DNA of 41,885 bases from a virus. Below are positions 5,116 through 41,248 of the stretch, piece after piece (the first letter of the stretch is position 1; each line of letters opens with the position of its first letter). The notes below the pieces were generated by a model. That model was given only the letters and a program-made list of their open reading frames with translations, did no database searches and had not been told where the DNA came from. Location of the stretch: positions 1 to 41,885 of the IMG/VR virus record IMGVR_UViG_3300047457_000627, one strand, 5' to 3'. A program made the position numbers and the translations under genes.

Positions 5116-6647
5116 ACCCGTTTGAGAGCCTGATCGCAGCGATCGCGCCGAAGACTGCTCTGCGGCGCCAGGCGGCCAGGCTGCAACTGGATCAGCTGCG
5201 CCGCTACGACGCCGACGCCCGCGGCCGGCGGGTGGACAACTGGATGGTGCGGCAGACCAGCGCCGACTGCGCCCTGGGGCCTGCCATCGGGTTGAAGGTT
5301 GAGCGCGCGCGCGACCTGGTGCGCAACAACCCCTATGCGCAGCGAATCATCCAGCTGTGGGTGGATGCGCTGGTAGGTCACGGGTGGAGCTTCAAGGCGA
5401 AGGCCGGCCGGCGGAACGGCGGCGCCCGCGGGCAGCGGGTGACGGATGAGTTCAGGGCCTGGGCCGCTGACCCGATGCAGTGCGACTACGAGGGCCTGCA
5501 GAACCTCGACGGGCTGATCGGCAAGGCGGTTGCGTGCTGGAAGGAGTCGGGCGAGGTGCTAATCCGATGGCGCACGCCGAGCCAGGCGACGATGCGCCGA
5601 CTGGGGCTGCGTGTGCCGCTGCAGCTGCACGTGCTGGAGCCCGACTGGCTCGATGAGAACCACGACACGCCGGCGGGCGAGGGCGGCGGCTACACGAAGC
5701 GCGGCATCATCTACGACGCCGAGGGCAAGCGCGAGAGATACTGGATCTACAACTACCACCCAGGCGAAAGCGCGCTGCGTGCGACGAGCATCGACTCGAA
5801 CACGGTGCCGGCTGAGCAGATCATCCATCTGTTCGCACCGAAGCGCGCCGGGCAGACGCGCGGCGTGACGAGCCTGGCGCCGGTGATGATCGCGCTGCGC
5901 GACCTCGACGACTACCTCGATGCGCAGCTGCTGAAGCAGAAGGTCTCGGCCTGCTTGACGGGCGTGATCGTTGACGTCGATGGCGCCGGCGATCAGAAGG
6001 CGGATGTGGGCGATCGCATCGAGCCTGGCGCGATGGTGCGCCTGGGCCCCGGGCAGGACATCCGCTTCAGCTCACCGCCGAGCGTGGGCGAGATCGACAA
6101 GGTGATGCGCGGCTACCTGCTGCGGATTGCGGCCGGCACCAACGTGCCGTATGAATTGCTGACAGGCGACTTCCAGGGCACCAACTTCTCGGCCGGGCGC
6201 CTGGGCTGGCAGAGCTTCAACAAGCAGACGGTGAGCGAGCAGTGGCAACTGCTGGCGCCGGCGATGAACCGGATCTGGCAGTGGTTCAGCGCCGCGACGC
6301 CGACACCGACTGAGGGGCTGACCCCCGACTGGACGCCGCCGCCCCCGCAGCCCTACGACCCAGCAGCCGACACCAAGGCGACGATCAGCAAGATGCGCGC
6401 AGGCCTCAAGCCGCCGCAGGAAGCGATCCGCGAGGAAGGCCTGGAGCCTGACGAGGTGCTGGAGCAGTACCGCGAATGGAACGCGCAGCTCGATGCTGGC
6501 GGCATCGTGCTCGACACCGATCCGCGGAAGGTGAGCGCCCAGGGCCTGACGCAAGCGCGCCCCATTGGATCTGAGATGCCCCCCACCGGCGAGCCACCGA
6601 GCGAGCCAACTTCCCCGCCTCAAGTTGCACCAGCCGGTGCGCCTTAG
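5112..6647 (+). CDS. Portal protein, lambda gpB family
   Basis: The 511-residue portal would form the 12-subunit ring at the capsid vertex for DNA entry and tail attachment. Recognisable family stretches are VERARDLVRNNPYAQRII, the HVLEPDWLDENHD segment, IIHLFAPKRAGQTRGV, and LLTGDFQGTNFSAGRLGW near residue 350. The C-terminus is Pro/Thr-rich and probably disordered. ATG overlaps the gpW stop (ATGA). The TAG stop is part of a putative late -10 box for the capsid gene. Confidence 0.95.
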   Translation: MNPFESLIAAIAPKTALRRQAARLQLDQLRRYDADARGRRVDNWMVRQTSADCALGPAIGLKVERARDLVRNNPYAQRIIQLWVDALVGHGWSFKAKAGRRNGGARGQRVTDEFRAWAADPMQCDYEGLQNLDGLIGKAVACWKESGEVLIRWRTPSQATMRRLGLRVPLQLHVLEPDWLDENHDTPAGEGGGYTKRGIIYDAEGKRERYWIYNYHPGESALRATSIDSNTVPAEQIIHLFAPKRAGQTRGVTSLAPVMIALRDLDDYLDAQLLKQKVSACLTGVIVDVDGAGDQKADVGDRIEPGAMVRLGPGQDIRFSSPPSVGEIDKVMRGYLLRIAAGTNVPYELLTGDFQGTNFSAGRLGWQSFNKQTVSEQWQLLAPAMNRIWQWFSAATPTPTEGLTPDWTPPPPQPYDPAADTKATISKMRAGLKPPQEAIREEGLEPDEVLEQYREWNAQLDAGGIVLDTDPRKVSAQGLTQARPIGSEMPPTGEPPSEPTSPPQVAPAGAP

Positions 6648-30938: not shown

Positions 30939-31118
30939 TCAGACGAACCACTCTTCGAGCATGGCGGCCATGTCCCGCATCTCTGCGGCCAGTGCCAGCC
31001 CACGCTCGATTGAGCGTCCGTACGCCTCGAGCGCTGCGTCGATCTCCGCGAGGACCATCTCGGTCTCACGGCGATCCGCCTCGATCTCGGCGAGGAGGGC
31101 GCGGGTCTCGTCAGTCAT
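30939..31118 (-). CDS. Small coiled-coil protein A, 59 aa
   Basis: The protein starts MTDETRALLAEIEADRRETE and is nearly all helix with heptad spacing, ending RDMAAMLEEWFV. It is paralogous to the gene at 32705-32896 (shared A-E-I-D-x-A-L-x-A-Y and S-I-E-R-G-L-A-L blocks and the E-W-F end). ATG 31118 has GGAG on the minus strand at a good distance. A conserved structured leader lies directly upstream. Function is unknown; a small regulator or anti-host factor is possible. Confidence 0.75.
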   Translation of the reverse strand: MTDETRALLAEIEADRRETEMVLAEIDAALEAYGRSIERGLALAAEMRDMAAMLEEWFV

Positions 31119-31250
31119 GGTGATCTCCGGTGGGTGGTGAGTCCTGGCGGACTCAGTGGGGTGCCAGGGGATGGACCACCACCGGGATCGGGACTGACTG
31201 CCCGCTCGGCCGAAGCCGCTATTTCTAGGTGCTGGGGGTCCTGCCCCCAC
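31119..31250 (-). ncRNA. Structured 5' leader A (candidate cis-regulatory RNA)
   Basis: On the minus strand the leader would begin at about 31250, right at hairpin P1 (GGGGG-CAGGA-CCCCC, 31234-31248). A UUCG hairpin at 31207-31218 and a hairpin GAGTCC/GGACTC (31139-31154) follow, and an outer stem pairs 31176-31185 with 31127-31137, so half of the ribosome site GGAG (31125-31128) is inside a helix. The leader at 32897-33020 has the same order and changes bases in pairs. Confidence 0.55.
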
Positions 31251-31256
31251 AAGATC

Positions 31257-31307
31257 AGTATGCACCCGCGTCGGCCCCGTGCACCGTCCGTGTCACAACT
31301 CTTCACA
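31257..31307 (-). promoter_or_regulatory. Direct-repeat promoter a
   Basis: The minus strand carries TGTGAAGAGTTGTGACA (31291-31307), two TGTGA units 10 bp apart, and CATACT (31257-31262) 30 nt downstream as the -10. Predicted start is near 31250, at the base of the leader hairpin. Confidence 0.6.
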
Positions 31308-31320
31308 ATCGAACGGGCAC

Positions 31321-31345
31321 AAAAAAAGGGGCCCCGCAGGGCCCC
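31321..31345 (-). terminator. Intrinsic terminator for leftward transcript
   Basis: On the minus strand GGGGCCC (31339-31345 side) pairs with GGGCCCC (31328-31334 side) around a four-base loop, directly followed by seven T residues (31327-31321). It would end the transcript of gene 31351-31539. Confidence 0.85.
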
Positions 31346-31350
31346 GGCGC

Positions 31351-31539
31351 TCACATATCCAGCGCTTCTTCCAGCTCACAGCAGGCGCTGAGCAGAGCGT
31401 CAACTGGCGGGCAGTTGCACAGCTCTTCCCACAGCTCGGTTGAGCTGGCGTCCCGCAGGGCCTGGAAGGCGGCTACCACTTCCTCGGCATTGCTGAGGAC
31501 GGCGGCCAGCTCCTGGATCTGGGTGGCGAGAGTATTCAT
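31351..31539 (-). CDS. Unknown helical protein, 62 aa
   Basis: The protein MNTLATQIQELAAVLSNAEE has a heptad-like helical start and a later CNCPPVDALLSACCELEEAL region with four cysteines, which could hold a metal ion or form disulfides. ATG 31539 is preferred to the upstream GTG because it lies just after a predicted promoter start (31582-31633). A strong terminator follows. No family is recognised. Confidence 0.65.
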   Translation of the reverse strand: MNTLATQIQELAAVLSNAEEVVAAFQALRDASSTELWEELCNCPPVDALLSACCELEEALDM

Positions 31540-31581
31540 CTGTCTAGGTGCGGGGTACAGGGCATCTCTGCCCATGACGAC

Positions 31582-31633
31582 ACCCTACCGCCGGGGGTGC
31601 GCCCCGGGCGGGGTCGTGTCACAACTCTTCACA
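31582..31633 (-). promoter_or_regulatory. Direct-repeat promoter b
   Basis: The minus strand carries TGTGAAGAGTTGTGACA (31617-31633), identical to copy a, with TAGGGT (31582-31587) exactly 31 nt downstream of the second TGTGA. It overlaps the end of the wHTH gene and drives the 62-residue gene. Confidence 0.65.
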
Positions 31634-31892
31634 TTGGCCCCAGCCGGCGGATGCGGTACAGCCCGCGGCCGCTGCGGTAGTCGAGCAGGCCCGCCTCCCA
31701 CAAGCGGCGGAGGCGGTTGCTCACGGTGGCCTGGCTGCAGAGCCAGTGCCGCCGCAGCACGTCGGTCTCGATGTGGCAGGGCCGCTCCGGGAGCAGCTGC
31801 TCCAGGTCGAGCCAGTCGAGCAGCACGCTGTCGGACACGCGGTGGCGCAGGGACAGAAGGGTGTCAACTCCCAAGCAACTCCTAATCTGCAC
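31629..31892 (-). CDS. Winged-helix regulator, possibly 5'-truncated
   Basis: The protein body contains VLRRHWLCSQATVSNRLRRL and WEAGLLDYRSGRGLYRI, a clear winged-helix pattern (HTH, recognition helix, wing). GTG 31892 or TTG 31874 could start it; there is no ATG. The upstream sequence is the antisense of a PAAR remnant, so the native 5' end may have been cut off by the recombination that left that remnant. It could regulate the direct-repeat promoters, one of which overlaps its end, but there is no proof. Confidence 0.6.
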   Translation of the reverse strand: MQIRSCLGVDTLLSLRHRVSDSVLLDWLDLEQLLPERPCHIETDVLRRHWLCSQATVSNRLRRLWEAGLLDYRSGRGLYRIRRLGPM

Positions 31893-31935
31893 CAGCGTGG
31901 CGGCCGGGTCGCCCAACGTGTTCTGCGGGCCCTAG
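31887..31935 (+). pseudogene. PAAR gene 3'-end remnant
   Basis: These 49 bp match the last 49 bp of the PAAR gene (30849-30897) at 43 positions. Apart from the stop codon (TGA versus TAG) all differences are silent, and the frame ends in the same residues (TSVAAGSPNVFCGP). It is the leftover end of a second PAAR gene of related origin. Confidence 0.8.
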
Positions 31936-32312
31936 GCCGCCAGCGCCAGCTCAATCAGCTGCCGCTTCGCCAGCTTGCGGCGGATGCCGTAGCGCTGCCG
32001 GATCTGCCGGCAGGACAGCTGCTCGAGTTCCTGGCGGATGCTGATGACGCACGGCGCAGGCGTGGGCGCGGTGGGCACCAGCAGGCGGGCGTACCAGCAG
32101 CCGAGCCGCTCGGAGAGCACCGGCAACGCATCCCAGGCGCGCCGCGTGGCGCGACCGGCCAGCAGGGTGAGCACGATCAGGATCTGCAGGCCATGCAGCA
32201 CGATCTCGGCGACCTCGGCCCAGTCGATCGTGCGGTAAGCCCAGAGCAGGCCGCGGGCAGCGGCGCCGGTGATGCGGCCGGCAGCGCCGGCGATGGTGGT
32301 GGCGTTGGTCAT
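31932..32312 (-). CDS. Membrane-anchored protein with C-terminal helical motif, 126 aa
   Basis: ATG 32312 has GGAGGA on the minus strand. The protein has one hydrophobic segment (VAEIVLHGLQILIVLTLLAG) at about residues 33-52, a middle loop with RATRRAWDALPVLSERLG, and an end RQIRQRYGIRRKLAKRQLIE that resembles small SAP/Rho-N-type nucleic-acid-binding motifs. It is leftward; its stop abuts the PAAR remnant. Function is unknown. Confidence 0.65.
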   Translation of the reverse strand: MTNATTIAGAAGRITGAAARGLLWAYRTIDWAEVAEIVLHGLQILIVLTLLAGRATRRAWDALPVLSERLGCWYARLLVPTAPTPAPCVISIRQELEQLSCRQIRQRYGIRRKLAKRQLIELALAA

Positions 32313-32602
32313 GGTTCCTCCGGCCAATGCCGGGCGATGGTGGATCCGCTGGCGGCTCACTCGGCCGTCATCAGCGGGATGAAGGGGTGCCCCGTGATCG
32401 CTGCTCAGGGGCCAGGCAGGGCAGCTCTCGTGTCCGCTGCGGAGAATCCGGGGCGCGCTATCCGGCTTGTGGCCTGATTGGGGTGCCGGGCCAACCGGCG
32501 GTGCGGGCTTACTCAGGCCCTGTTGAGCTCGATTGTGGGGTCGTGTGCTCTGTTCCCCCCTAGACCGCGTTTTTAGCGAGGTGACGGTCCGCCTTCCCTC
32601 GT
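32313..32602 (-). other. Long untranslated leader of 126-aa gene
   Basis: Between a predicted start near 32602 and ATG 32312 lie 290 nt without an open frame of note on either strand. On the minus strand it has a GGCACCCCAATCAGGCC stretch similar to part of leaders A and B (GGCACCC-nn-TGAGTCC) and a stem GCCGG near the ribosome site. It may be a third, more diverged leader or the relic of a lost gene. Confidence 0.4.
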
Positions 32603-32608
32603 GATCAC

Positions 32609-32660
32609 AACCTACCGCCGGGAGACTGCATCGGGCGAGTTGATGTCACATCTCGTAATA
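32609..32660 (-). promoter_or_regulatory. Direct-repeat promoter c (diverged)
   Basis: The minus strand has TATTACGAGATGTGACA (32644-32660): the second TGTGA is intact and the first reads TATTA. TAGGTT (32609-32614) follows exactly 31 nt downstream. It faces the long leader of the 126-residue gene. Confidence 0.5.
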
Positions 32661-32683
32661 ATCCCGATGGCGGGGTGGAGTCT

Positions 32684-32697
32684 GCCCCCGAAGGGGC
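32684..32697 (-). terminator. Hairpin after coiled-coil gene B
   Basis: On the minus strand GCCCC-TTCG-GGGGC forms a five-pair stem 8 nt after the TGA of gene 32705-32896. No T-run follows. Confidence 0.3.
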
Positions 32698-32704
32698 CGC
32701 CGCA

Positions 32705-32896
32705 TCAGAACCACTCCTGCAGTTCTGCTGCGGCGTCCACCAGTCCGTTCTCGATGCCGTCTGCCATCTCGATCAGCTCCTGGCTCAGGGCCAGGCCGCG
32801 CTCGATCGAGGCGGTGTAGGCAGCGAGGGCCTCGTCGATCTCTGCGAACAGAGCGTCGATCTCGGCCTGGCTGGCGTTGCGGGTGGTGGCGTCCAT
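32705..32896 (-). CDS. Small coiled-coil protein B, 63 aa
   Basis: Starting MDATTRNASQAEIDALFAEI, this is the paralogue of the gene at 30939 with the same AEIDEALAAYTASIERGLAL core and an ELQEWF end. ATG 32896 has GGAG on the minus strand. It shares not only the protein but also its whole upstream region (leader and direct-repeat promoter) with gene A, so the unit has been duplicated or acquired twice. Confidence 0.8.
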   Translation of the reverse strand: MDATTRNASQAEIDALFAEIDEALAAYTASIERGLALSQELIEMADGIENGLVDAAAELQEWF

Positions 32897-33020
32897 CTGG
32901 ATCTCCGGTGAGTGGCGAGTCCCTGGCGGGGACTCATTGGGTGCCAGGTGTGGCCACCACCGGAGCGGGACGCTTCCCGCGAGCTATGCAGTTGTCCAGG
33001 TGCTGGGGCCGTGGCCCGCG
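32897..33020 (-). ncRNA. Structured 5' leader B (candidate cis-regulatory RNA)
   Basis: On the minus strand P1 (GGGCC-AC-GGCCC, 33006-33017) starts right after the predicted transcription start, followed by CAGCACCTGG, a GCGGGA/TCCCGC hairpin (32965-32980), a GAGTCCC/GGGACTC hairpin (32917-32935), and an outer stem pairing 32954-32963 with 32905-32915 next to the GGAG site. The last hairpin has one more G-C pair than in leader A, a compensatory change. Confidence 0.6.
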
Positions 33021-33025
33021 ATCAC

Positions 33026-33077
33026 ACGGTAAAGGCACGGCACGGCGCCGGGCGAGTCCATGTCACAACTCTTCATA
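33026..33077 (-). promoter_or_regulatory. Direct-repeat promoter d
   Basis: The minus strand has TATGAAGAGTTGTGACA (33061-33077) and TACCGT (33026-33031) exactly 31 nt downstream of the second repeat. Predicted start is at about 33019, two bases before leader hairpin P1. Confidence 0.65.
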
Positions 33078-33133
33078 TTAGCGCAGCAGCACCAGCTACA
33101 GCCAGCGCTGGCCAGCGTCGCTACCCTCCGGCC

Positions 33134-33268
33134 ATGGATGAGCAACAGGTGCGGCGGCTGATCGAGGACGCGATCCGCGACCACGAGATCCGCGTCGCGG
33201 CGATCTCCGGCGTGCTCGGCGTCCTGCTGATGATCGGCACCTGGCACGCGATCTGGCTCTGTCGGTGA
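33134..33268 (+). CDS. Small membrane protein, 44 aa
   Basis: The frame from ATG 33134 gives MDEQQVRRLIEDAIRDHE and then a single membrane segment (VAAISGVLGVLLMIGTW). It starts just after TACCCT (33122-33127), which would leave almost no leader, so the mRNA may be leaderless. It reads away from promoter d and ends exactly where the next leftward frame ends. Function is unknown. Confidence 0.6.
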   Translation: MDEQQVRRLIEDAIRDHEIRVAAISGVLGVLLMIGTWHAIWLCR

Positions 33269-33334
33269 TCACACCCCCAGGTCGTCGCTCACCCGGGCCA
33301 CAGCCGCCTGCGCGGCGGGGGAGAGATCAGTCAT
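33269..33334 (-). CDS. Micro-ORF or truncated gene, 21 aa
   Basis: The start ATG 33334 overlaps the end of the following-listed gene and the frame reads MTDLSPAAQAAVARVSDDLG before TGA. The beginning looks like the start of a longer helical protein, so it may be a truncated gene. It has no separate ribosome site. Low support. Confidence 0.3.
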   Translation of the reverse strand: MTDLSPAAQAAVARVSDDLGV

Positions 33335-33530
33335 CGATCGGCTCCCAGTCGATGGTGACATCGCGGCCGAAGCCGCAGGTTCCCCAGCGCACGATGCGGC
33401 GCTTGATGACCATTCCGGTCTCAACGATGCCCAGCGTGATCGGCACGAACGCTTCGCGCGGCGTGCCCGGTTTCGAGTTAAACCACCACAGCTCTCCGAT
33501 GCGGCCTCCTTCGCAGTTGATGATCACCAT
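33327..33530 (-). CDS. Unknown protein, 67 aa, paralogue of 37517 gene
   Basis: ATG 33530 is coupled to the Lar-like gene stop (TGATG) with GGGGAGG upstream. It shares I-N-x-x-x-G-R-I-G-E-L-W-W-x-N-S, L-G-I and R-W-G-T-x-G-x-G-R-D with the 60-residue protein at 37517-37699, so the two are paralogues. Small, probably beta-rich. No family is recognised. Confidence 0.7.
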   Translation of the reverse strand: MVIINCEGGRIGELWWFNSKPGTPREAFVPITLGIVETGMVIKRRIVRWGTCGFGRDVTIDWEPIDD

Positions 33531-34006
33531 CACTCCACCTCCCCGCTAAGCACCGGCAGGCCGGCGATCATGGCCGGCAATGCCGGGATGTCATGCGGGA
33601 GGCAGTGAGTCGCGTTGTCGTCGGTGACGGCGCTGCTCCAGTCCCAGCGGTCTGGTGCGTCCGGCAGCGGCCGGCCTATCCAGCATCGCCCCTGGTCATC
33701 GCACCAGCCCTCGCGCTCCCATGGCCGTTCACGCATCGGCACCGGCTGCAGCGATCCTTCCTCGCTGCTCATGTCCCAGGCTTCGCGGTAGTTGCCACCG
33801 ACTGGCCCGGCGATGGGCTCGGTCAGGGCGGCGCGGCGATTCCATGCGTCGCAAGCAGCGTCGTCGTCGCAGTACGGGTCAGCGGCCCGCTCATCGCAGG
33901 GGCCCTCAGTGCCGCACTCGTTGCATTCGATGTAGCCCTGAGATCCAGCGAACTCGTAGCGCAGGTTGGTGGAGCCGCAGAAAGGGCATGGCAACAGGTC
34001 AGCCAT
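33530..34006 (-). CDS. Lar-like restriction alleviation protein
   Basis: The 158-residue protein has a zinc ribbon at the start (LLPCPFCGSTNLRYEFAG, then IECNECGTEGP), followed by AACDAWNRRA, the standard signature of the Lar family. Lar of the Rac prophage lowers type I restriction. The C-terminal half (REAWDMSSEEGSLQPVPMRE, and later HDIPALPAMIAG) is longer than usual for Lar. ATG 34006 lies 35 nt after the predicted start of promoter e. Confidence 0.75.
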   Translation of the reverse strand: MADLLPCPFCGSTNLRYEFAGSQGYIECNECGTEGPCDERAADPYCDDDAACDAWNRRAALTEPIAGPVGGNYREAWDMSSEEGSLQPVPMRERPWEREGWCDDQGRCWIGRPLPDAPDRWDWSSAVTDDNATHCLPHDIPALPAMIAGLPVLSGEVE

Positions 34007-34047
34007 GGTCGAATTGGGTAGTGGGCGCCTCCGCCCTGGGCTCCCCC

Positions 34048-34099
34048 ATCTTCGGTAGCCGGCAGCCGCTTGACCGTCCAACCGTCACAAATTGTCACA
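34048..34099 (-). promoter_or_regulatory. Direct-repeat promoter e
   Basis: The minus strand has TGTGACAATTTGTGACG (34083-34099) with both TGTGA units intact, and GAAGAT (34048-34053) exactly 31 nt downstream. It drives the Lar-like gene. Confidence 0.6.
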
Positions 34100-34146
34100 T
34101 AACCGAGCTCAGCCTGAGCCGTGTCATTCCCACGCAGTTCCCACAG

Positions 34147-34174
34147 AAAAGCCCGGCGTCATGACTCGCCGGGC
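34147..34174 (-). terminator. Intrinsic terminator for the dcd operon
   Basis: On the minus strand GCCCGGCG (34174-34167) pairs with CGCCGGGC (34158-34151) around an eight-base loop, followed by TTTT (34150-34147). It ends leftward transcription coming from the operon that finishes at 34502, just before promoter e. Confidence 0.75.
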
Positions 34175-34241
34175 CCGTAGTCATGGTGACGACCCACCAA
34201 GCCGTCGTGCCTACGATACTGTCGATCTTCGCCTGGACGTT

Positions 34242-34520
34242 ATGTTCTGGCTTGACCTCAACCTGCCCCTCTCGGATGAGTTCGAGATCGAGAAGCAGGT
34301 GCGCTACGTCCGCGCTTGCACCAACATCGAGGAGCTGCGCAGCGTGACCATTGCACTGCTGCGCTTCGCCACTCAGCAGGCCCACGTCTCCAACCAGCTT
34401 GTCGCCCAGGTGGCCGAGATCGAGGCGGACCTGATCGGCCTGGGCCACTGCCCCGAGCCAACTGCAGAACATCACGCCATGGCGGCCGAGATCCTCGCCG
34501 CTCACCGCGCCAACAGCTGA
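34242..34520 (+). CDS. Small helical protein, 92 aa (NblA-like pattern possible)
   Basis: The protein begins MFWLDLNLPLSDEFEIEKQV and is predicted mainly helical (RYVRACTNIEELRSVTIALL, later VAQVAEIEADLIGL). The opening L-S-x-E-F-E-I-E-x-x-V followed by E-E-L-x-x-x-x-x-x-L-L recalls phycobilisome-degradation proteins of the NblA type known in some cyanophages, but the match is weak and lengths differ. ATG 34242 follows a TACGATACT -10-like box (34211-34219). It overlaps the end of a leftward gene by 19 nt. Confidence 0.6.
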   Translation: MFWLDLNLPLSDEFEIEKQVRYVRACTNIEELRSVTIALLRFATQQAHVSNQLVAQVAEIEADLIGLGHCPEPTAEHHAMAAEILAAHRANS

Positions 34521-34666
34521 TCCAGGTAGAGATCCGCTTGCCAGCGGTCTTCGCAGTAGCGGCAGTAACCGTGAGCGCAAGCGCGGTGGTAGATCTCACC
34601 GCGCTCGTTCTCCAGCAGCTCGATGCTGCCGCCATTGCGCTCCCAGCGATCGATCACTGTGCTCAC
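34502..34666 (-). CDS. Unknown protein with CxxC-like motif, 54 aa
   Basis: GTG 34666 overlaps the stop of the 29-residue gene (GTGA), so translation is coupled. It contains RACAHGYCRYCEDRWQADLY, with three cysteines and a histidine spaced like a small zinc site. It is the last gene of the dcd operon. Function is unknown. Confidence 0.65.
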   Translation of the reverse strand: MSTVIDRWERNGGSIELLENERGEIYHRACAHGYCRYCEDRWQADLYLDQLLAR

Positions 34667-34752
34667 GGCAAGATCCGCGACGCCAGCCACAGGCTAAGTC
34701 CGCAGATCAGCCAGTAGCAGGCGATCAGCACAAGCACGTCATGCAAGCTCAT
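34663..34752 (-). CDS. Micro-protein with one membrane segment, 29 aa
   Basis: The frame from ATG 34752 reads MSLHDVLVLIACYWLICGLS and then SLWLASRILP. It is almost entirely hydrophobic. It begins inside the previous gene and ends in a GTGA overlap with the next, and these couplings are why I believe it is translated in spite of its size. It may be a membrane micro-protein that alters the host cell. Confidence 0.55.
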   Translation of the reverse strand: MSLHDVLVLIACYWLICGLSLWLASRILP

Positions 34753-34945
34753 CGGCGTCAGCCTCCTGGCGATGGATCCAGGTTTTCAGCTCGGCCACAT
34801 AGTGGCGCAGGACCTGGGCCTGCTGCAGGTGGAAGCGATCGCCGGTGGCGAAGTAAAGACGGTTGTGGCGATCGACCGCCTGCAGCGCCTGGTGGATCAG
34901 CACGTTCCAGTGCTCGCGCACCGGCGTGTTCCACTCGCGCGGCAT
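34739..34945 (-). CDS. Unknown helical protein, 68 aa
   Basis: The sequence MPREWNTPVREHWNVLIHQA continues as one long helix-rich chain (LQQAQVLRHYVAELKTWIHR). ATG 34945 follows the dcd stop with GGGG upstream. No family is recognised. It is in the operon with dcd. Confidence 0.65.
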   Translation of the reverse strand: MPREWNTPVREHWNVLIHQALQAVDRHNRLYFATGDRFHLQQAQVLRHYVAELKTWIHRQEADADELA

Positions 34946-34949
34946 GGCG

Positions 34950-35468
34950 TCACCCCTTGCTGGCGGTGACTTGCTGATCGCAGTTGTAGCGACCCGTCAC
35001 CGCGTAGCTGCGCTGAGGCGTGTTGGCCATCTGATGGAACACCATCTGTCCAATCTTCATCCCAGGCCACAGCGCGACCGGGTGCAGCTGGCGGCTGTTG
35101 TGGAGCTCCATGGTGAGCCGGCTGCCGTACCAGCCCGGGTCGCAGTAGCCCGCCATCAGGTGCTCCAGGCCCTCGCGGGCTCGTGAGCTCTTGAGCATGA
35201 ACTGCGCAGCCACATCATGCGGCAGGTTGAACGTCTCCACCGTCTCGGCCAGCACGAACTGCCCAGGCCGCAGCAGGTAGGGGTTCTCATGCGTGTGACC
35301 AGCGAGGGGGTAAGGCACCATCTCAGGCCCCTGGGCCGACTCGATCAGCAACGTGTCACCGAGGCGCACGTCAAGGCTGGCGGGGTTTACCAGCTCAGGA
35401 TCAAAGGGAATCACCATCTCATCGCTGCCCATGCAGCGGGCGGTGATCTGCCAGTCGCAAAGGATCAC
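34950..35468 (-). CDS. dcd: dCTP deaminase (Dcd/DUT-like)
   Basis: The 172-residue enzyme has the Dcd blocks in order: PASLDVRLGDTLLIE, LAETVETFNLPHDVAAQ, the catalytic SSRAREGLEHLMAG, and GWYGSRLTMELHNS (Glu121 as general base), then LWPGMKIGQMVF. It turns dCTP into dUTP (or dUMP if bifunctional), which feeds dTTP supply for phage replication. GTG 35468 overlaps the upstream stop and has a strong GGAGG (minus strand). No thymidylate synthase or separate dUTPase is seen here. Confidence 0.92.
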   Translation of the reverse strand: MILCDWQITARCMGSDEMVIPFDPELVNPASLDVRLGDTLLIESAQGPEMVPYPLAGHTHENPYLLRPGQFVLAETVETFNLPHDVAAQFMLKSSRAREGLEHLMAGYCDPGWYGSRLTMELHNSRQLHPVALWPGMKIGQMVFHQMANTPQRSYAVTGRYNCDQQVTASKG

Positions 35469-35620
35469 TGGCTCACCTCCTGCTGCTGCGCAGCCTGAGC
35501 CAGGCCGGTGTAAAGGCAGTGCATCGGATGGTCGTGGTTGTGGCGACCGTCCTGCGCATACCAGGCCTCGAGCTGTTCCTGGCGCGCTTGCTGCTCGATC
35601 GGGTTGCAGTCGGAGTTCAT
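35465..35620 (-). CDS. Unknown protein, 51 aa
   Basis: ATG 35620 overlaps the stop of the 107-residue gene. The sequence NPIEQQARQEQLEAWYAQDG is followed by GRHNHDHPMHCLYTGLA and a Gln-rich end. Five His and two Cys could bind metal. Its end holds the ribosome site of dcd, so the two are coupled. Confidence 0.6.
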   Translation of the reverse strand: MNSDCNPIEQQARQEQLEAWYAQDGRHNHDHPMHCLYTGLAQAAQQQEVSQ

Positions 35621-35943
35621 CAGATGATCGTGCGGGTGTTGTGGTTAGGGTCGGTCTCGTCGAGGTGGCACTCGGGGCCAAAGCCGGTGGCGAGCACCTC
35701 CTCTCTTGCTGGCCCTGCAGAGCCGGCCACGTGTTCGGCGTCGGCCGCCTCCAGGCTGGCGATCCAGGAGCGGATGCTGTCGCCTGTTGGCGTTTTCACC
35801 GGCCACGCCAACCAGCGCAGCATGGCCCTGGTGTCGCGGAACAGCTGGCTCACGTCCGGCTTCCAGGCGATAAACCAGCGGCCGTTCCAGTCGCGCCCGG
35901 TCTCGATGCAGAGGCCACGGGCATGAAGGCGCTCGCGCTTCAT
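35620..35943 (-). CDS. Unknown protein, 107 aa
   Basis: ATG 35943 overlaps the upstream TGA. Sequence features: KRERLHARGLCIETGRDWNG, several Trp residues in WFIAWKPDVSQLFRDTRAML, and a polar C-terminus ending DPNHNTRTII. No family is recognised. It is in the middle of the dcd operon. Confidence 0.65.
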   Translation of the reverse strand: MKRERLHARGLCIETGRDWNGRWFIAWKPDVSQLFRDTRAMLRWLAWPVKTPTGDSIRSWIASLEAADAEHVAGSAGPAREEVLATGFGPECHLDETDPNHNTRTII

Positions 35944-36158
35944 GTCGACAGCGTGACGATCGGCTTGCCGGAGAGCTCCAGCTGGCTGATGCGCCACTCG
36001 ATGCCCACGCTGTCCATCACCAGGTAGTGAGGCCAGCTGTGAGCAGCGAGCTGACAGAGCACGACGGCGCGCTCATCCTGGGGCCAGGTGCGGACGTAGA
36101 CGTGATCACCAGGCTCGAAGCGCCAGGGCTGATGGTTGAGCAGGTAGACGCGGCTCAT
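35940..36158 (-). CDS. Unknown beta-rich protein, 72 aa
   Basis: The protein MSRVYLLNHQPWRFEPGDHV contains VRTWPQDERAVVLCQLAAHS and a YLVMDSVGIEWRIS part with alternating hydrophobics, suggesting a small SH3-like barrel. Start and stop overlap both neighbours (ATGA). No family is assigned. Confidence 0.65.
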   Translation of the reverse strand: MSRVYLLNHQPWRFEPGDHVYVRTWPQDERAVVLCQLAAHSWPHYLVMDSVGIEWRISQLELSGKPIVTLST

Positions 36159-36355
36159 GGTCGGATGACGCGGATTTCAGTGGCCCAGCCCCAGCACAGC
36201 CGCAGGAGCTGCTGGCGCTCAATGGCGATGTCGATGTTCGGCGCGCGCCAGGCCTTGGTCTGATCGTTGTCGATGGCGAGCACCGGCGGAATCGGCTCGC
36301 CGTCGCCCTGGGGCGCTGTGATCCAGCGGCCGCCGCGCATGAGTGCGTAGCTCAC
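36155..36355 (-). CDS. Unknown protein, 66 aa
   Basis: GTG 36355 overlaps the TGA of the membrane protein upstream. It reads SYALMRGGRWITAPQGDGEP and later DIAIERQQLLRLCWGWATEI. Coupled at both ends. No family is recognised. An internal ATG 36340 could be an alternative start. Confidence 0.6.
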   Translation of the reverse strand: MSYALMRGGRWITAPQGDGEPIPPVLAIDNDQTKAWRAPNIDIAIERQQLLRLCWGWATEIRVIRP

Positions 36356-36510
36356 AGCTTCACTCCGTCGCGCTGCAGTTGCTTGCAGGCCAGCTCGGCC
36401 CCGGCGCGGCAGTCGCGCCGCGTCATGTCGGTGAGGCTGCTGGTCAGCGCGAACCAGAACCCGGTAATGATCGCTGCCCATAGGGCGGCGGCGGCAATAG
36501 TCGATCGCAT
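36352..36510 (-). CDS. Small membrane protein, 52 aa
   Basis: ATG 36510 is the first start after promoter f. The protein begins MRSTIAAAALWAAIITGFWF, an N-terminal membrane segment or uncleaved signal, then a polar part with two Cys (RRDCRAGAELACKQL). It is the first gene of the dcd operon. Function is unknown; phages often carry such membrane micro-proteins early. Confidence 0.65.
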   Translation of the reverse strand: MRSTIAAAALWAAIITGFWFALTSSLTDMTRRDCRAGAELACKQLQRDGVKL

Positions 36511-36534
36511 GGTAAGTGGGATGCGGACGGGCCA

Positions 36535-36586
36535 ATCATCGGCACTGCAGCAGCTGATGGCGATGCCGTTGTCACAATCGTTCACA
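36535..36586 (-). promoter_or_regulatory. Direct-repeat promoter f
   Basis: The minus strand has TGTGAACGATTGTGACA (36570-36586), and GATGAT (36535-36540) exactly 31 nt downstream. It precedes the nine-gene dcd operon. A TAGGCT hexamer (36601-36606) faces the HNH gene on the other side. Confidence 0.65.
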
Positions 36587-36627
36587 CCGCAGAATCCTCC
36601 TAGGCTGGCCGCAGCAGCACGCAGCCC

Positions 36628-36915
36628 ATGCAGGCGCGGATCGAGGGCGCAGAGCTCGTCACCCGCCGCAGCTGGAGGCAACGCATCTTCGAGGCCTGGG
36701 ATCATCGCTGCGCTTACTGCAACGCGCCGGCGCAGTCGCTCGATCACATCTGGCCGAAGTGCAAAGGCGGCCTTACGGTGCGCGCCAACCTGGCGCCGGC
36801 ATGTCTGCCATGCAACAGGCAGAAGGGGCACCGCGAGGTGTTCAGCTGGTGGCGTGAGCAGCCCTACTGGAGCGAGATCGGTCAAGCCAAGCTGCTCGAC
36901 TGGCTCACCTCATAG
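36628..36915 (+). CDS. HNH endonuclease
   Basis: The 95-residue protein has the HNH core: CAYCNAPAQSLDHIWPKCKG, then NLAPACLPCNRQKGH, with the two CxxC pairs and the DH of the betabeta-alpha-metal fold. It cuts DNA and may be a homing enzyme or a packaging helper; being far from the terminase, the latter is less likely. Rightward, divergent from promoter f, it overlaps the end of the convergent gene by 34 nt. Confidence 0.88.
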   Translation: MQARIEGAELVTRRSWRQRIFEAWDHRCAYCNAPAQSLDHIWPKCKGGLTVRANLAPACLPCNRQKGHREVFSWWREQPYWSEIGQAKLLDWLTS

Positions 36916-37382
36916 AGGCTGCAGTCAGCAGCGAACGCTGGACCCTCTTCGAGCGGATCGGGGAAGCCCATCCCGCAGCGATCGCCTTTCCAGTGATCGC
37001 AGGCATGGCACGACACACTTGGATCGGGGCGTTGTTGCACGTGGCGACGCGGCAGCTCGGGCAGTATGCGCGCGTGCAAAGTGCCGCGTCGGATCGCGGC
37101 GACCGCCTCCTTCGATCGGCCGAGCTCGCGGGCGAGCTTGACGCTGCTGAGCGGCGACGTGAGCACCAGGCGCACTTCGTCCTCGGTCATTGGCGGCTTC
37201 GAGCGGTAGCCCTTGCGAGCGTTGGGGTCGCGGCCCTGAAACGGTCGCTCGCCGACCCATGTCGTCCAGCGGTGGGAGCACTCGTGGCAGTGATGGCGGC
37301 GCCGGCGGCCGCCAGTACGAACGGGGCGAGTTTCGATCACCCGCGTGTGGCTGCTTCTGCAGCTCGGGCAGTCAGTGGTCAT
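36882..37382 (-). CDS. Zinc-ribbon protein with NrdR-like start, 166 aa
   Basis: The N-terminus DCPSCRSSHTRVIETRP, then RRRRHHCHECSHRWTTW is a zinc ribbon like that of NrdR regulators. The middle has an HTH-like VKLARELGRSKEAVAAIRRG, and the end has a second Cys set (SCHACDHWKGDRCGMG). It lacks the NrdR ATP cone, so it is probably a phage transcription factor or nuclease. Start ATG 37382 has no ribosome site at the usual distance; GGAGG is about 15 nt upstream. Confidence 0.7.
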   Translation of the reverse strand: MTTDCPSCRSSHTRVIETRPVRTGGRRRRHHCHECSHRWTTWVGERPFQGRDPNARKGYRSKPPMTEDEVRLVLTSPLSSVKLARELGRSKEAVAAIRRGTLHARILPELPRRHVQQRPDPSVSCHACDHWKGDRCGMGFPDPLEEGPAFAADCSLYEVSQSSSLA

Positions 37383-37490
37383 CAGGAGAAGAAGGGCCGG
37401 GCCTCCGATACCGCACACTGCGGCAGCCGAGACCCCAGGCTCGACTGCGGCGGCGCTCGCCCTTACGGGTGGAGCCGACCCGGCTGGGGG

Positions 37491-37520
37491 TCAGGTTAGG
37501 TGGGCGGTCGGGTCAGTCAT
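37491..37520 (-). CDS. Nine-codon coupled micro-ORF
   Basis: ATG 37520 overlaps the stop of the 60-residue gene, has GGAGG at a good distance and reads nine codons to TGA. It is in frame with the zinc-ribbon gene, with no other stop between them. It may be a leader peptide, or the true start of the zinc-ribbon gene cut by a nonsense mutation. Confidence 0.3.
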   Translation of the reverse strand: MTDPTAHLT

Positions 37521-37699
37521 TCCTGCACCTCCAGCGCCAGCCGGATGTCGCGGCCAATGCCAACGGTGCCCCAGCGCACGTAACGCAACACCCTGGGGAT
37601 GCCAATGCCTAGTGGGTCGAGCGCTTCAAGAATGGTGGTGTCGGAGTTGATCCACCACAGCTCGCCGATGCGGCCCTGGTCAGAGTCGATGTTGATCAT
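37517..37699 (-). CDS. Unknown protein, 60 aa, paralogue of 33327 gene
   Basis: The sequence MINIDSDQGRIGELWWINSD, then YVRWGTVGIGRDIRL, is clearly related to the 67-residue protein at 33327-33530. It overlaps the previous stop (ATGA). The two copies lie in two different leftward operons. Function is unknown. Confidence 0.75.
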   Translation of the reverse strand: MINIDSDQGRIGELWWINSDTTILEALDPLGIGIPRVLRYVRWGTVGIGRDIRLALEVQE

Positions 37700-38127
37700 T
37701 GGCCTGCCTCCTGCTCAAGACGTCCTGCCCAGTAATCACCAGTGCTCAGATCTTGTGAGCGCAGCCAAGCCGCCACTTCGCGGATCACGGCGCGGGCTTC
37801 AGGTGCCCAGTTGACGGCCTCCTCGTCCCAGCACGAACTGTCTTCAATTCCGCTGATCGCAAGGGCCACTCGCTTCACCAACGAACTGCGCTCGAGCAGC
37901 CCGGCCGCCGCACGGATCTGCTCCGGCGTGGCGTTCTTGATCAGATCCATGCACGCATGAAACCGCCGGTCGTTCTCTTCCTCGTCAATCGGCTCAGGCT
38001 GCTGCTGCGCGGCCTCCAGCGCCTCGACCCTGGCGCGGAGTTCAAGCAAGCAGCGAGCGTCTTCACAATCACTCGCCCACTTGCTTTGCAGCTCCCAATC
38101 TTCCGGCGTTGCTTTGTAGTCAGTCAT
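37696..38127 (-). CDS. Unknown protein, 143 aa
   Basis: ATG 38127 overlaps the RlpA-like stop. It starts TDYKATPEDWELQSKWASDC and has a helical coiled-coil part (CLLELRARVEALEAAQQQPE), then NATPEQIRAAAGLLERSS and a Trp-rich end. The look is of cyanobacterial phage/host small proteins with a leading helical pair; no family is named. Confidence 0.65.
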   Translation of the reverse strand: MTDYKATPEDWELQSKWASDCEDARCLLELRARVEALEAAQQQPEPIDEEENDRRFHACMDLIKNATPEQIRAAAGLLERSSLVKRVALAISGIEDSSCWDEEAVNWAPEARAVIREVAAWLRSQDLSTGDYWAGRLEQEAGQ

Positions 38128-38456
38128 GGGTGAGAGATGCGAACAGTTGCAATGCCGTCGAGCGGCACACCCAAGCGATGAGCAGCGCCGGCGCTCAGGT
38201 CGATCGAGCTGCAGTCGCAGCGATCGGTCACCGGCACCGTGAGCACACGGCCCTGGTGGCTGACCCTGACGCGTGTGTTGCATGGCAGCCATGGATGCGC
38301 CGCCGACACGCCCCAGTGTCGATAGGTGCTGCCGCAGTAGGTGGTGCGGCCATGGAACCAGCCGTCGTAAACGGTCGCGGTCACAGCGCGGCCACCAGCA
38401 TCAGCAGGTGGCGTGAGCTGGTGGAGCAGAGCGATCAGGAGAAAGATGCGCTTCAT
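38124..38456 (-). CDS. Secreted RlpA-like double-psi beta-barrel protein
   Basis: The 110-residue protein has a signal peptide (KRIFLLIALLHQLTPPADAG), then an RlpA-type barrel with ATVYDGWFHGRTTYCG, VSAAHPWLPCNTRVRVSHQG and VTDRCDCSSIDLSAGAAHRL. Bacterial RlpA cuts naked glycan strands at the septum; related barrels bind cell-wall sugars. The Asp in VTDRC fits the catalytic position of the family. In a phage early operon it could alter the host wall during infection, for example to block superinfection. It overlaps both neighbours by ATGA. Confidence 0.8.
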   Translation of the reverse strand: MKRIFLLIALLHQLTPPADAGGRAVTATVYDGWFHGRTTYCGSTYRHWGVSAAHPWLPCNTRVRVSHQGRVLTVPVTDRCDCSSIDLSAGAAHRLGVPLDGIATVRISHP

Positions 38457-38677
38457 TGCAGGGTCGGGTTGCGTTGTTCAGCAGTCAGTGATGGGTGGCT
38501 GTCCCAGTCGTCTTCAGGTTCAGCGCAGGCGGCGTGATCCTCGATCCACTGCTCACCCAGCCATGCGGCCTCGTGCAGTGAGATCGGCAGCTGCAGCATC
38601 TGCTCAGCGCCGCACACCTCGCAGCGGAACTGCGGCGGCTGACTGGTGAGATCCACGACGCAGTGGTCGGCGGTCAT
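38453..38677 (-). CDS. Unknown protein with CxxC motif, 74 aa
   Basis: The sequence MTADHCVVDLTSQPPQFRCE is followed by CEVCGAEQMLQLPISL and a polar end. The CxxC and nearby Cys/His could form half a zinc ribbon. It overlaps both neighbours (ATGA). No family is recognised. Confidence 0.65.
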   Translation of the reverse strand: MTADHCVVDLTSQPPQFRCEVCGAEQMLQLPISLHEAAWLGEQWIEDHAACAEPEDDWDSHPSLTAEQRNPTLQ

Positions 38678-38976
38678 CGCTCGACTCCGTTGAGCCGATC
38701 GGCGACCAGCTGCGCATAGCCCGCGATGTCGTGCCAGCTGTCGGCATAGTCGGGGTCGCCGTTGATGATCCGGCCGATCTTGTGGCAGATCATGTCGAGG
38801 GCTTCCTGCTGGTCTGGCGCCAAGTGGTCGCCGCGTTTGCCATCAGGCCGGATCCGGCTCAATGGGGTGTGCTCAGCAATCACGCGCTTCAGGTCCTGAG
38901 TGATGCGCGCGTGGCCGGTGAAAGCGCCGTAGCGGCTGCCGCGCTCTTGCAGCGTGGCGGTGATGTCGGTGGTCAT
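38674..38976 (-). CDS. DUF6378-like protein, 100 aa
   Basis: The protein reads TLQERGSRYGAFTGHARITQ and later EALDMICHKIGRIINGDPDY and DSWHDIAGYAQLVADRL. These are the marks of the DUF6378 phage family (an all-helix fold related to MazG-like nucleotide enzymes by some accounts). ATG 38976 has a strong GGAGG. The role is unknown; a nucleotide-pool role is a guess. Confidence 0.75.
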   Translation of the reverse strand: MTTDITATLQERGSRYGAFTGHARITQDLKRVIAEHTPLSRIRPDGKRGDHLAPDQQEALDMICHKIGRIINGDPDYADSWHDIAGYAQLVADRLNGVER

Positions 38977-39221
38977 TGCTCCACCTCCCATCCAGCCAGC
39001 TCGCCGGCCGCTTCGAGCATCAGCCGCCGCGCCAGCTCGTGGACGGTCAGGCTCGGCTCCTTCTGGTTCAGCCAGACGATCTCGGCTGCCAGGTGCTCCA
39101 GCACCGCAGCGACGCCGCGGCGTGCGGCGGTTGACTGCTCTCGGGTAAGCGGCACGCTTGGAGCCAGCGCTTCTTCGAGGGCCACGGTGCAGCGGCCGAG
39201 CAGGGTGTTGTCAGTGGTCAT
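38973..39221 (-). CDS. Unknown helical protein, 82 aa
   Basis: The sequence starts MTTDNTLLGRCTVALEEALA and has helices AARRGVAAVLEHLAAEIVWL and LTVHELARRLMLEAAGELA. It overlaps both neighbours by ATGA. No family is recognised. Three successive genes in this operon start MTTD or MTAD, probably because the ribosome-site context was copied. Confidence 0.6.
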   Translation of the reverse strand: MTTDNTLLGRCTVALEEALAPSVPLTREQSTAARRGVAAVLEHLAAEIVWLNQKEPSLTVHELARRLMLEAAGELAGWEVEQ

Positions 39222-39493
39222 GGCAGGCGTGCCTCAAAGCTCATGTGGGCCACCACCTTGTCGATCAGCCACTGGGGCACGACTGGCGGCTTCGGCAGCC
39301 AGCGACTGGCTCTCCAGGCTTGCGCGTAAGGATCCCACGCGGCGATCTGATCGAGCAGCTTGCGCTGGCCGGTGCTGCGGTGGAAGCGCACCAGGTTGGG
39401 ATTGCCGCTGAAGGTCGGGTCTTGGGTGATCGTCCAGCCTGCGCCTGGCGTGTTGGCGTTGGCGGGCGACTGGTAGATGACGAGCGGTGCCAT
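39218..39493 (-). CDS. Unknown protein, 91 aa
   Basis: ATG 39493 has GGGAGG seven bases upstream and overlaps the preceding stop (TGATG). GTG 39496 is a less likely start. The protein reads APLVIYQSPANANTPGAGWT, FHRSTGQRKLLDQIAAWDPY and a WLPKPPVVPQWL part. No family is recognised. Confidence 0.6.
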   Translation of the reverse strand: MAPLVIYQSPANANTPGAGWTITQDPTFSGNPNLVRFHRSTGQRKLLDQIAAWDPYAQAWRASRWLPKPPVVPQWLIDKVVAHMSFEARLP

Positions 39494-39669
39494 CACACCA
39501 CCTCCCGCGGCCAGAACTGGCGCACCGACTCGATGTCCTCATCGCCGCGAGCCAGGAAACAGGCTCGGGCTTCGGCGTCTTCCAGGCATTCGGCCTCGAC
39601 GATCAGGCCGCGGCCGATCACGTCACCGCTCGGCGCGGTGTCGCGGTAGTGGATCTTGAACAGGGTCAT
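39493..39669 (-). CDS. Unknown small protein, 58 aa
   Basis: From ATG 39669 the frame reads MTLFKIHYRDTAPSGDVIGR, then GLIVEAECLEDAEARACFLA, to TGA 39493. It encodes an alpha/beta pattern, and its end carries the ribosome site of the next gene. It is the first gene of the long overlapping operon down to 36882. Confidence 0.6.
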   Translation of the reverse strand: MTLFKIHYRDTAPSGDVIGRGLIVEAECLEDAEARACFLARGDEDIESVRQFWPREVV

Positions 39670-39690
39670 GGTGGTAATGGGTAGATGAAT

Positions 39691-39710
39691 GGCCCCGGTC
39701 GACCGGGGCC
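39691..39710 (-). terminator. Perfect 20-bp GC palindrome
   Basis: GGCCCCGGTCGACCGGGGCC is a perfect palindrome between the 77-residue gene and the 58-residue gene. No T-run follows on either strand, so it may attenuate or protect RNA, or be a protein-binding site. Confidence 0.4.
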
Positions 39711-39719
39711 GTGTGCTGA

Positions 39720-39953
39720 TCAGGCCGCCTTCATGTAGGCGAAGCTCATGTCGAGCTCGGCGTCATACACCGTGTCGTCCTCGATCCGGCAGAGATCGTG
39801 CTTGATGCAGAACAGCACTGCGCGGTTCACCGCCACGCAGTCGCCGCTGATCGTGAAGCGATCCGCCGTGCGGAAGGTCCACTCGATCACAGCGCCGCAG
39901 CCGTTGCGGATCTGGGCCTCGATGTCGCTGCCGATCTGCTGAAGAAGATCCAT
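39720..39953 (-). CDS. Unknown protein, 77 aa
   Basis: The sequence DLLQQIGSDIEAQIRNGCGA is followed by AVNRAVLFCIKHDLCRIEDD. ATG 39953 is selected because promoter g predicts transcription start near 40002, which is after the more distal ATG codons (40010-40019). No family is recognised. Confidence 0.65.
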   Translation of the reverse strand: MDLLQQIGSDIEAQIRNGCGAVIEWTFRTADRFTISGDCVAVNRAVLFCIKHDLCRIEDDTVYDAELDMSFAYMKAA

Positions 39954-40008
39954 TGCTGAAACCGGCTCGAGGCCGGGCGGGGTGGTGGGAGTCGCCTCCC
40001 GTGAGGTC

Positions 40009-40060
40009 ATCATCGCCACTTGCCGCCCTTACCGCCAGCTGCCGTTCACACGCTGTAACA
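40009..40060 (-). promoter_or_regulatory. Direct-repeat promoter g
   Basis: The minus strand has TGTTACAGCGTGTGAAC (40044-40060), two units 10 bp apart, and GATGAT (40009-40014) exactly 31 nt downstream of the TGTGA. It overlaps the stop of the wHTH gene. The first unit contains GTTACA, the core of the cyanobacterial HLR1 element. Confidence 0.55.
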
Positions 40061-40511: not shown

Positions 40512-41033
40512 TCAGAACGGGATGCCGTCGTCGTCAGGCGGATCCAGCGGTGCGCTGTTCCACGCCGGCGGCTGCTGCGCGGCCACGGTGCCGTTCGCTG
40601 GGTTCGGGGCCCAGCCGGCCGCGGCCAGGTGCGCGGGCTGCGCAGCAGGTGCAGGCGCGGCGGCCGGAGCAGCAGGAGCAGCAGGCGGCTGCTGGATCAG
40701 CTGCCACTGCCGCACGATGCACACCAGCGCCACACGCTCAGCGCCTGTGTTCCGATCAGTCCAGCGGTCGGTCTTCACGCGACCCACTACATGCACCTCC
40801 TGGCCCTTGCGGCAGGTGTCCGCGAACCGCTGGCCGTCTTCCCCCCAGATCTCCAGCTTAATCCAGTCAGCATCCTGGCCGTCGTCCTTCTTCGACCCCG
40901 GCCGGTTGATGCCGATGCTCGCGTTGCACACGCTGTTGCCGTTCTGCAGGAACTTCGCCTCTGGATCACGGCCCAGGCGGCCGATGAAGTGATGCGAGCT
41001 CGCGCGGAGCAGCGTGTTGATGATTTCGCTCAT
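40512..41033 (-). CDS. ssb: Single-stranded DNA-binding protein
   Basis: The 173-residue protein has an OB fold (HFIGRLGRDPEAKFLQNGNS, NASIGINRPGSKKDD, WIKLEIWGEDGQRFADTCRK, QEVHVVGRVKTDRW), an Ala/Pro/Gln-rich linker and the acidic tip DPPDDDGIPF, which recruits partner proteins. ATG 41033 overlaps the HTH gene stop. It works with RecT in replication or recombination. Confidence 0.95.
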   Translation of the reverse strand: MSEIINTLLRASSHHFIGRLGRDPEAKFLQNGNSVCNASIGINRPGSKKDDGQDADWIKLEIWGEDGQRFADTCRKGQEVHVVGRVKTDRWTDRNTGAERVALVCIVRQWQLIQQPPAAPAAPAAAPAPAAQPAHLAAAGWAPNPANGTVAAQQPPAWNSAPLDPPDDDGIPF

Positions 41034-41248
41034 GTTGATGGTTGTGGTTGTTCTTCGTTGCTTAGCCATTGCTGGCTGAGCTTCTCGTAAGCGTGGATCC
41101 CCTCGATGGGGTAGAGAACCCGGGATCCAACCCGGATGAATGGCGGGCCCTTGCCCGCTGATCTCCAGTTCGCCAGCGTCTGATCGCTCAGCCGCCAGCG
41201 GTCTGCGACCTCTTTTGAGGTCAGAAACGTTGGTACTGCACTGCCCAT
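41030..41248 (-). CDS. Excisionase-like HTH protein, 72 aa
   Basis: The protein has the MerR/Xis-type domain FLTSKEVADRWRLSDQTLAN, then WRSAGKGPPFIRVGSRVLYP, as in HTH_17 excisionase or DNA-binding proteins. An AAGGAG ribosome site precedes ATG 41248. No integrase is visible in the window, so it may be a plain regulator. Confidence 0.82.
   Translation of the reverse strand: MGSAVPTFLTSKEVADRWRLSDQTLANWRSAGKGPPFIRVGSRVLYPIEGIHAYEKLSQQWLSNEEQPQPST

Follow-up and report, generated by a model that had tools for sequence, protein, structure and literature searches.

Promoter cassettes in freshwater cyanophages probably mimic the psaA promoter of a Cyanobium-type host

HLR1, the site bound by the cyanobacterial OmpR-family response regulator RpaB, is described as KTTACAWW-N2-KTTACAWW (PMC13421787). 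In model strains RpaB activates transcription from about -66 to -45 and represses it from -38 to +23, and psaA is among the genes activated in both PCC 7942 and PCC 6803 (PMC13421787). According to a second source, an HLR1-like element that activates lies at -45 to -60 (PMC9241938). Repeated promoters are also known from viruses. In Halovirus HF2 conserved intergenic repeats have been shown to be promoters (PMC8707807). T4-like phages carry composite promoter-terminator motifs (PeSLs), which likewise combine a repeated promoter with a stem-loop before small variable genes. Here we compare these systems with a set of promoter cassettes in a virus from the IMG/VR collection (record IMGVR_UViG_3300047457_000627). 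The window analyzed is this entire record, which is 41,885 bases long and has been classified as linear. The cassettes probably mimic the RpaB-activated psaA (photosystem-I) promoter of a Cyanobium-type host, with a 5'-terminal hairpin added.

The plus strand of the window encodes ParB-like, methyltransferase, terminase, portal, head, sheath and tail proteins; between 41.9 and 30.9 kb, the minus strand holds the end of a RecT gene and genes for an AlpA-like helix-turn-helix protein and SSB, along with many small genes. No close cultured relative was found in the phage collection. Since the terminases closest to that of the window among cellular genomes (82–86%) sit in Cyanobium and Synechococcaceae assemblies, the host very probably belongs to this group. 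By sequence comparison, the cassette recurs before many small genes in dozens of relatives, a family of freshwater Cyanobium-type phages.

A preliminary description of the window had proposed a regulon of seven minus-strand promoters, each with a direct repeat upstream of a -10-like hexamer. All seven repeats are present, and the hexamers lie at the distances described, 31 nt in six sites and 30 nt at 31291. From the window alone the repeat reaches only modest significance. The minus strand holds four exact TGTGA pairs spaced 10 bp apart and a single one over all other distances of 5–30 bp, while the plus strand has none within that range. Allowing up to two mismatches, the window holds 6 matches compared to 2.6 ± 1.6 in shuffled sequence, and 3 of 100 shuffles reach 6. 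Site 40044 has three mismatches to the originally proposed consensus, and only the presence of the complete cassette in its orthologues makes it secure.

The relatives provide the larger sample. Downstream of 148 non-redundant repeat sites, chosen regardless of any promoter, TANNNT was found most often at 31 nt (26 cases), followed by 41 nt (8) and 30 nt (6); across 1000 shuffles the maximum at any offset was 7. The fixed spacing is thus commoner than in shuffled sequence and recurs in relatives. The 41-nt class corresponds to one extra 10-bp unit and comprises mostly promoters of recT operons, which have further such units. A composite pattern of repeat and hexamer gave 35 matches in 17 phage records and none for a reversed control. 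GATGAT and GAAGAT are weak -10 hexamers; nonetheless, GATGAT recurs at 30–31 nt in many relatives. No significant sigma-70 -35/-10 pair was detected in the region. The cassettes have the hallmarks of activator-dependent -10 promoters, namely a -10 at fixed distance, no -35 and a purine at +1. Judged from sequence, a promoter regulon with an activator-type site is supported, the repeat spanning roughly -58 to -42 relative to the predicted +1.

The cassette was approached from two sides, by picking hairpins regardless of the repeat and by picking repeats regardless of the promoter. Its order is repeat, 31 nt, a -10 without a -35, a near-invariant A at +1, usually a hairpin at +3, and then ACCACCCC. 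In most real units selected by hairpin the repeat lies 44–47 nt upstream, and a scan of the viral collection with the hairpin pattern returned mostly these cassettes again. Conversely, a strong hairpin begins 40–50 nt after the repeat in 37 of 68 promoters with repeat and -10, where 3.4 would be expected. Of 29 hairpin units, 28 have A as the seventh base downstream of the -10, and in 22 the distance from -10 to hairpin is 8 nt; the predicted RNA therefore reads A, C or U, a 5-bp stem with a GNRA-type loop and usually ACCACCCC. All five stem pairs show two-sided changes, with 97% of cells paired and a covariation score of 0.50 compared to 0.13 in shuffles. Some rows of this alignment were chosen knowing the hairpin, and a selection made before the pairing was considered looked alike. 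The idea of a regulon with fixed spacing hence holds, but the preliminary description missed the hairpin at the 5' end, the invariant +1 A and, as shown below, the inverted HLR1 and the match to a host photosystem-I promoter.

What might such a hairpin do? Together with ACCACCCC it most likely protects the start of the RNA against degradation. Its 5-bp stem, GNRA tetraloop and conserved downstream ACCACCCC could also serve in lambda boxB-type antitermination or be recognized by a phage RNA-binding protein. However, the loops vary in some units, the hairpin is absent at site 36570 and at recT-type promoters, and host psaA RNA has its own 5' hairpin of unrelated sequence. The cassette also lacks the boxA that precedes boxB in lambda nut sites; a hairpin that begins at +3, about 2 nt into the predicted transcript, leaves no room for one. 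We regard this role as unlikely, though it deserves some weight. Nor does the hairpin behave as a T4-type PeSL terminator, as it is followed by no U tract. The phage cassettes also differ from PeSLs in having the stem-loop at the transcript 5' end and a promoter that would depend on an upstream operator. HF2 is an archaeal virus and is not known to have an operator or hairpin module of the cassette kind. An Rfam search of the window returned no relevant family.

The resemblance to T4-like promoter/stem-loop elements raises another thought, that the cassettes spread selfishly as mobile regulatory modules, the regulator being incidental. The cassette indeed precedes different small genes at corresponding positions in relatives. 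Yet the spacers diverge freely around an unchanging repeat, spacing, -10 and +1, a pattern that suggests promoter function, and we consider selfish spread very improbable.

Which protein would read the repeat? The preliminary description had named host RpaB as one candidate from a loose resemblance at a single site; that suggestion now appears likely from the sequence comparison. The 68 phage sites match HLR1 on the opposite strand with a mean of 11.2 of 14 positions, compared to 8.3 for random sequence under the identical selection pattern and 9.4 for the forward reading. The outer WW of HLR1, which lies outside the selection pattern, is found in 35 of the 68 sites where about 10% would be expected, and the inner W positions are likewise enriched; as related sites are not fully independent, P values for this match are optimistic. 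An initial comparison on the forward strand was discarded as misleading because the phage repeat is reversed in orientation. Phage repeats and the RpaB regulon (psaA, psaD, cpcB and atpT activated; hli, nblA and rpoD3 repressed) thus share the 10-bp period of two repeats, NTNACA cores, the A/T positions and a location near the activating window, with which -58 to -42 overlaps without matching it exactly. They differ in that the phage sites are inverted, exist in many phage-borne copies and carry a GNRA hairpin at +3.

The closest counterpart was found in the hosts. We compared 42 Cyanobium genomes and read the psaA upstream region in 19. All 19 psaA promoters have TTRAAYCTTTGTAACT, exactly 31 nt and TATACT, which is the phage spacing and register. 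An A stands seventh after the hexamer, an RNA hairpin starts at +4, and the repeat matches HLR1 in reverse orientation at 11–12 of 14 positions. A pattern covering both phage and psaA forms finds one site in nearly every Cyanobium genome (40 of 42), compared to 5 control matches in total. All but two of the genus-wide sites listed carry the psaA sequence, with the psaA position itself confirmed for the 19 inspected. This pattern was composed after psaA had been seen and therefore shows rarity elsewhere, not independent discovery. The Cyanobium psaA promoter and the phage cassette accordingly share an inverted HLR1-like repeat, 31 nt, TANNNT, a +1 A and a 5'-proximal hairpin. They are unlike in that psaA has its own hairpin sequence with a start at +4, lacks the ACCACCCC tail and occurs in little more than one copy per host genome. 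When the 42 genomes were searched for HLR1, the sites read in context belonged mainly to hli genes; there HLR1 is in forward orientation about 41 nt before the ATG, probably a repressing position.

Several observations weigh against this interpretation. Where HLR1 has T at the third core base, G is the usual base in phage sites (C on the opposite strand), and in the forward reading GTTAC stands in both units of none of the 68 sites. A scan of the host genomes for GTKAC twice gave nothing above control, so the phage version of the repeat is not identical to any host site. Searching these genomes for the exact phage motif also gave no enrichment, which seemed to oppose host control before the inverted form, of the psaA type, was recognized. 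Moreover, binding of RpaB to psaA in Cyanobium is assumed by analogy with other cyanobacteria. Another host regulator of the OmpR type such as RpaA could instead bind both the repeats and the psaA promoter. Direct repeats of 10 bp are typical of this class, and RpaB and RpaA targets overlap at some promoters. Still, it is HLR1 in particular that the phage repeats match, and control of psaA by RpaB is established in two model strains, which makes a different OmpR-type protein quite improbable.

Regulators encoded by the phages themselves were considered as well. Two winged helix-turn-helix (wHTH) proteins had been put forward as possible drivers, but homologues of that at 40046 were found in 10 of the 17 repeat-bearing phage records and of that at 31629 in 5 of the 17, several of these records being fragments. 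Neither is found in some repeat-rich records, for example that of L120 with six composite sites, and neither is supported as the driver. A further possible regulator, encoded at 36882–37418 on the minus strand, combines an NrdR-like zinc ribbon with additional cysteine motifs; it was set aside, being undetected in several repeat-bearing fragments.

The AlpA/HTH_17 protein of 72 residues (41033–41248, minus strand) was the leading explanation until the psaA promoters were read, and it is now the main rival. This small winged-helix protein, similar to BldC and excisionases, could bind the 10-bp repeats head to tail and activate the promoters, including that of its own operon. Among the DNA-binding proteins it alone recurs in all the repeat-bearing phage contigs spanning its locus. 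In both sequence and fold, RdfS and BldC come closest to it among solved structures; their family oligomerizes head to tail on DNA, with BldC binding direct repeats (PMC11963761, PMC5859096), and AlpA has been described as a master regulator in Gram-negative phage-inducible islands (PMC11773190). The recT-operon promoters, in which 10-bp repeats run toward the -10, would fit such a protein. A further point also speaks against RpaB: 122 composites occur in 503 kb near AlpA proteins of at least 55% identity (shuffle 1.4), compared to 8 in 246 kb near more divergent ones, although the hosts may differ too. On the other hand, an AlpA regulator predicts neither the A/T positions of HLR1 nor the identical layout of the host psaA promoter, and a role as excisionase or autorepressor would be just as plausible. 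BldC recognizes 9-bp repeats of the AATT type, unlike the 10-bp repeats here, where AlpA binding is putative and drawn from analogy. No clear covariation between recognition helix and repeats was seen by eye. On balance we think control by AlpA unlikely.

The seven cassettes of the window vary on the common plan; all lie on the minus strand. Clear hairpins are present at 40044, 34083, 31617 and 31291, weaker ones at 33061 and 32644, and none at 36570. The cassette at 31291–31307 has the inverted HLR1-like repeat TGTGAAGAGTTGTGACA, CATACT (31257–31262) and a +1 predicted at 31250. Its hairpin GGGGG-CAGGA-CCCCC (31234–31248) opens a leader that continues to an ATG at 31118. About 20 bases upstream lies a strong intrinsic terminator (31345–31328), so that terminator and promoter abut. 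At 31617–31633 TGTGAAGAGTTGTGACA overlaps the stop codon of the wHTH open reading frame 31629–31916 and is followed by TAGGGT (31582–31587), a predicted +1 A at 31575, the hairpin GGGCA-GAGA-TGCCC with a GNRA loop (31560–31573) and a reading frame starting with ATG at 31539. The repeat TATTACGAGATGTGACA at 32644–32660 precedes TAGGTT (32609–32614) and a predicted +1 A at 32602, with a long leader to the ATG at 32312. The repeat TATGAAGAGTTGTGACA at 33061–33077 precedes TACCGT (33026–33031), a predicted +1 at 33019, the weaker hairpin at 33006–33017 and an ATG at 32896.

Two of the repeats, TGTGACAATTTGTGACG at 34083–34099 and TGTGAACGATTGTGACA at 36570–36586, match the inverted HLR1 at 12 of 14 positions. 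The former is followed by the -10-like GAAGAT (34048–34053), the hairpin GGGCG-GAGG-CGCCC (34023–34036) and then ACTACCC. Directly behind it a Lar-like restriction-alleviation protein is encoded (33530–34006, ATG about 34006), which hints at a role of the regulon in host takeover. The latter has GATGAT at 36535–36540 and lies inside a mechanically called open reading frame (36352–36885), whose matching frame in the close relative L009 stops just before the repeat. Finally, TGTTACAGCGTGTGAAC at 40044–40060 precedes the -10-like GATGAT (40009–40014), a predicted +1 A at 40002 and the hairpin GGGAG-GCGA-CTCCC (39987–40000) followed by ACCACCCC. Some sites have ATG or GTG at the predicted +1; leaderless translation from there was rejected, as these codons are not kept in relatives.

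Upstream of two paralogous small genes lies another structured leader (31250–31118 and 33019–32896, minus strand), also present in the relatives L007, L009, L106 and L108. Its outer stem CCGGTGGTGG...CACCGG touches the GGAG ribosome site, and the stem of an inner hairpin shows compensating differences between phages. The loop GCCA/GCCT could pair with an upstream TGGC/AGGC in a possible pseudoknot. No Rfam match to this leader was found in the window at E up to 1. Further arrangements were seen among the relatives. In L109 (2904), L113 (1036), L115 (6664) and L131 (555), on the minus strand, a cassette-type repeat adjoins CCTGTGGAAATCGAGTTCTCCACAGG, which resembles paired DnaA boxes and is possibly part of a replication origin. 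L009 has at 6055–6214 a divergent control region between helicase and exonuclease/recT operons, with 10-bp repeats toward the recT -10, conserved at the equivalent place in about 14 relatives. A much larger phage contig (L136, 75.9 kb) carries at 3908 on the minus strand GATGAT, the hairpin and a p32705-like gene with a degenerate repeat only.

If the cassettes do work as psaA does, phosphorylated RpaB of the host would bind the inverted HLR1-like repeat and recruit RNA polymerase to a promoter with a -10 only. Transcription would begin at the conserved A, and the RNA of most cassettes would open with the 5-bp, usually GNRA-capped hairpin followed by single-stranded ACCACCCC. As RpaB is activating when phosphorylated, in low to moderate light, the phage genes would be read then, and by analogy with psaA their expression would fall in high light.

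Host regulation by RpaB, HLR1 and phage promoter repeats were each known separately. A non-exhaustive literature search found no phage family in which the psaA layout is repeated many times within each genome and joined to a covarying 5' hairpin. Whether freshwater cyanophages have copied an RpaB-activated photosystem-I promoter in multiple copies, thereby placing accessory as well as replication and recombination genes under the light and redox control of the host, with a new GNRA hairpin and ACCACCCC marking or protecting their mRNAs, is in our view evenly balanced. If RpaB controls these promoters, which would bear on how cyanobacterial phages sense light, phage expression would be wired to the photosynthetic redox state via the very switch that sets photosystem-I levels, and the cassette would offer a ready-made promoter for Cyanobium-type hosts.

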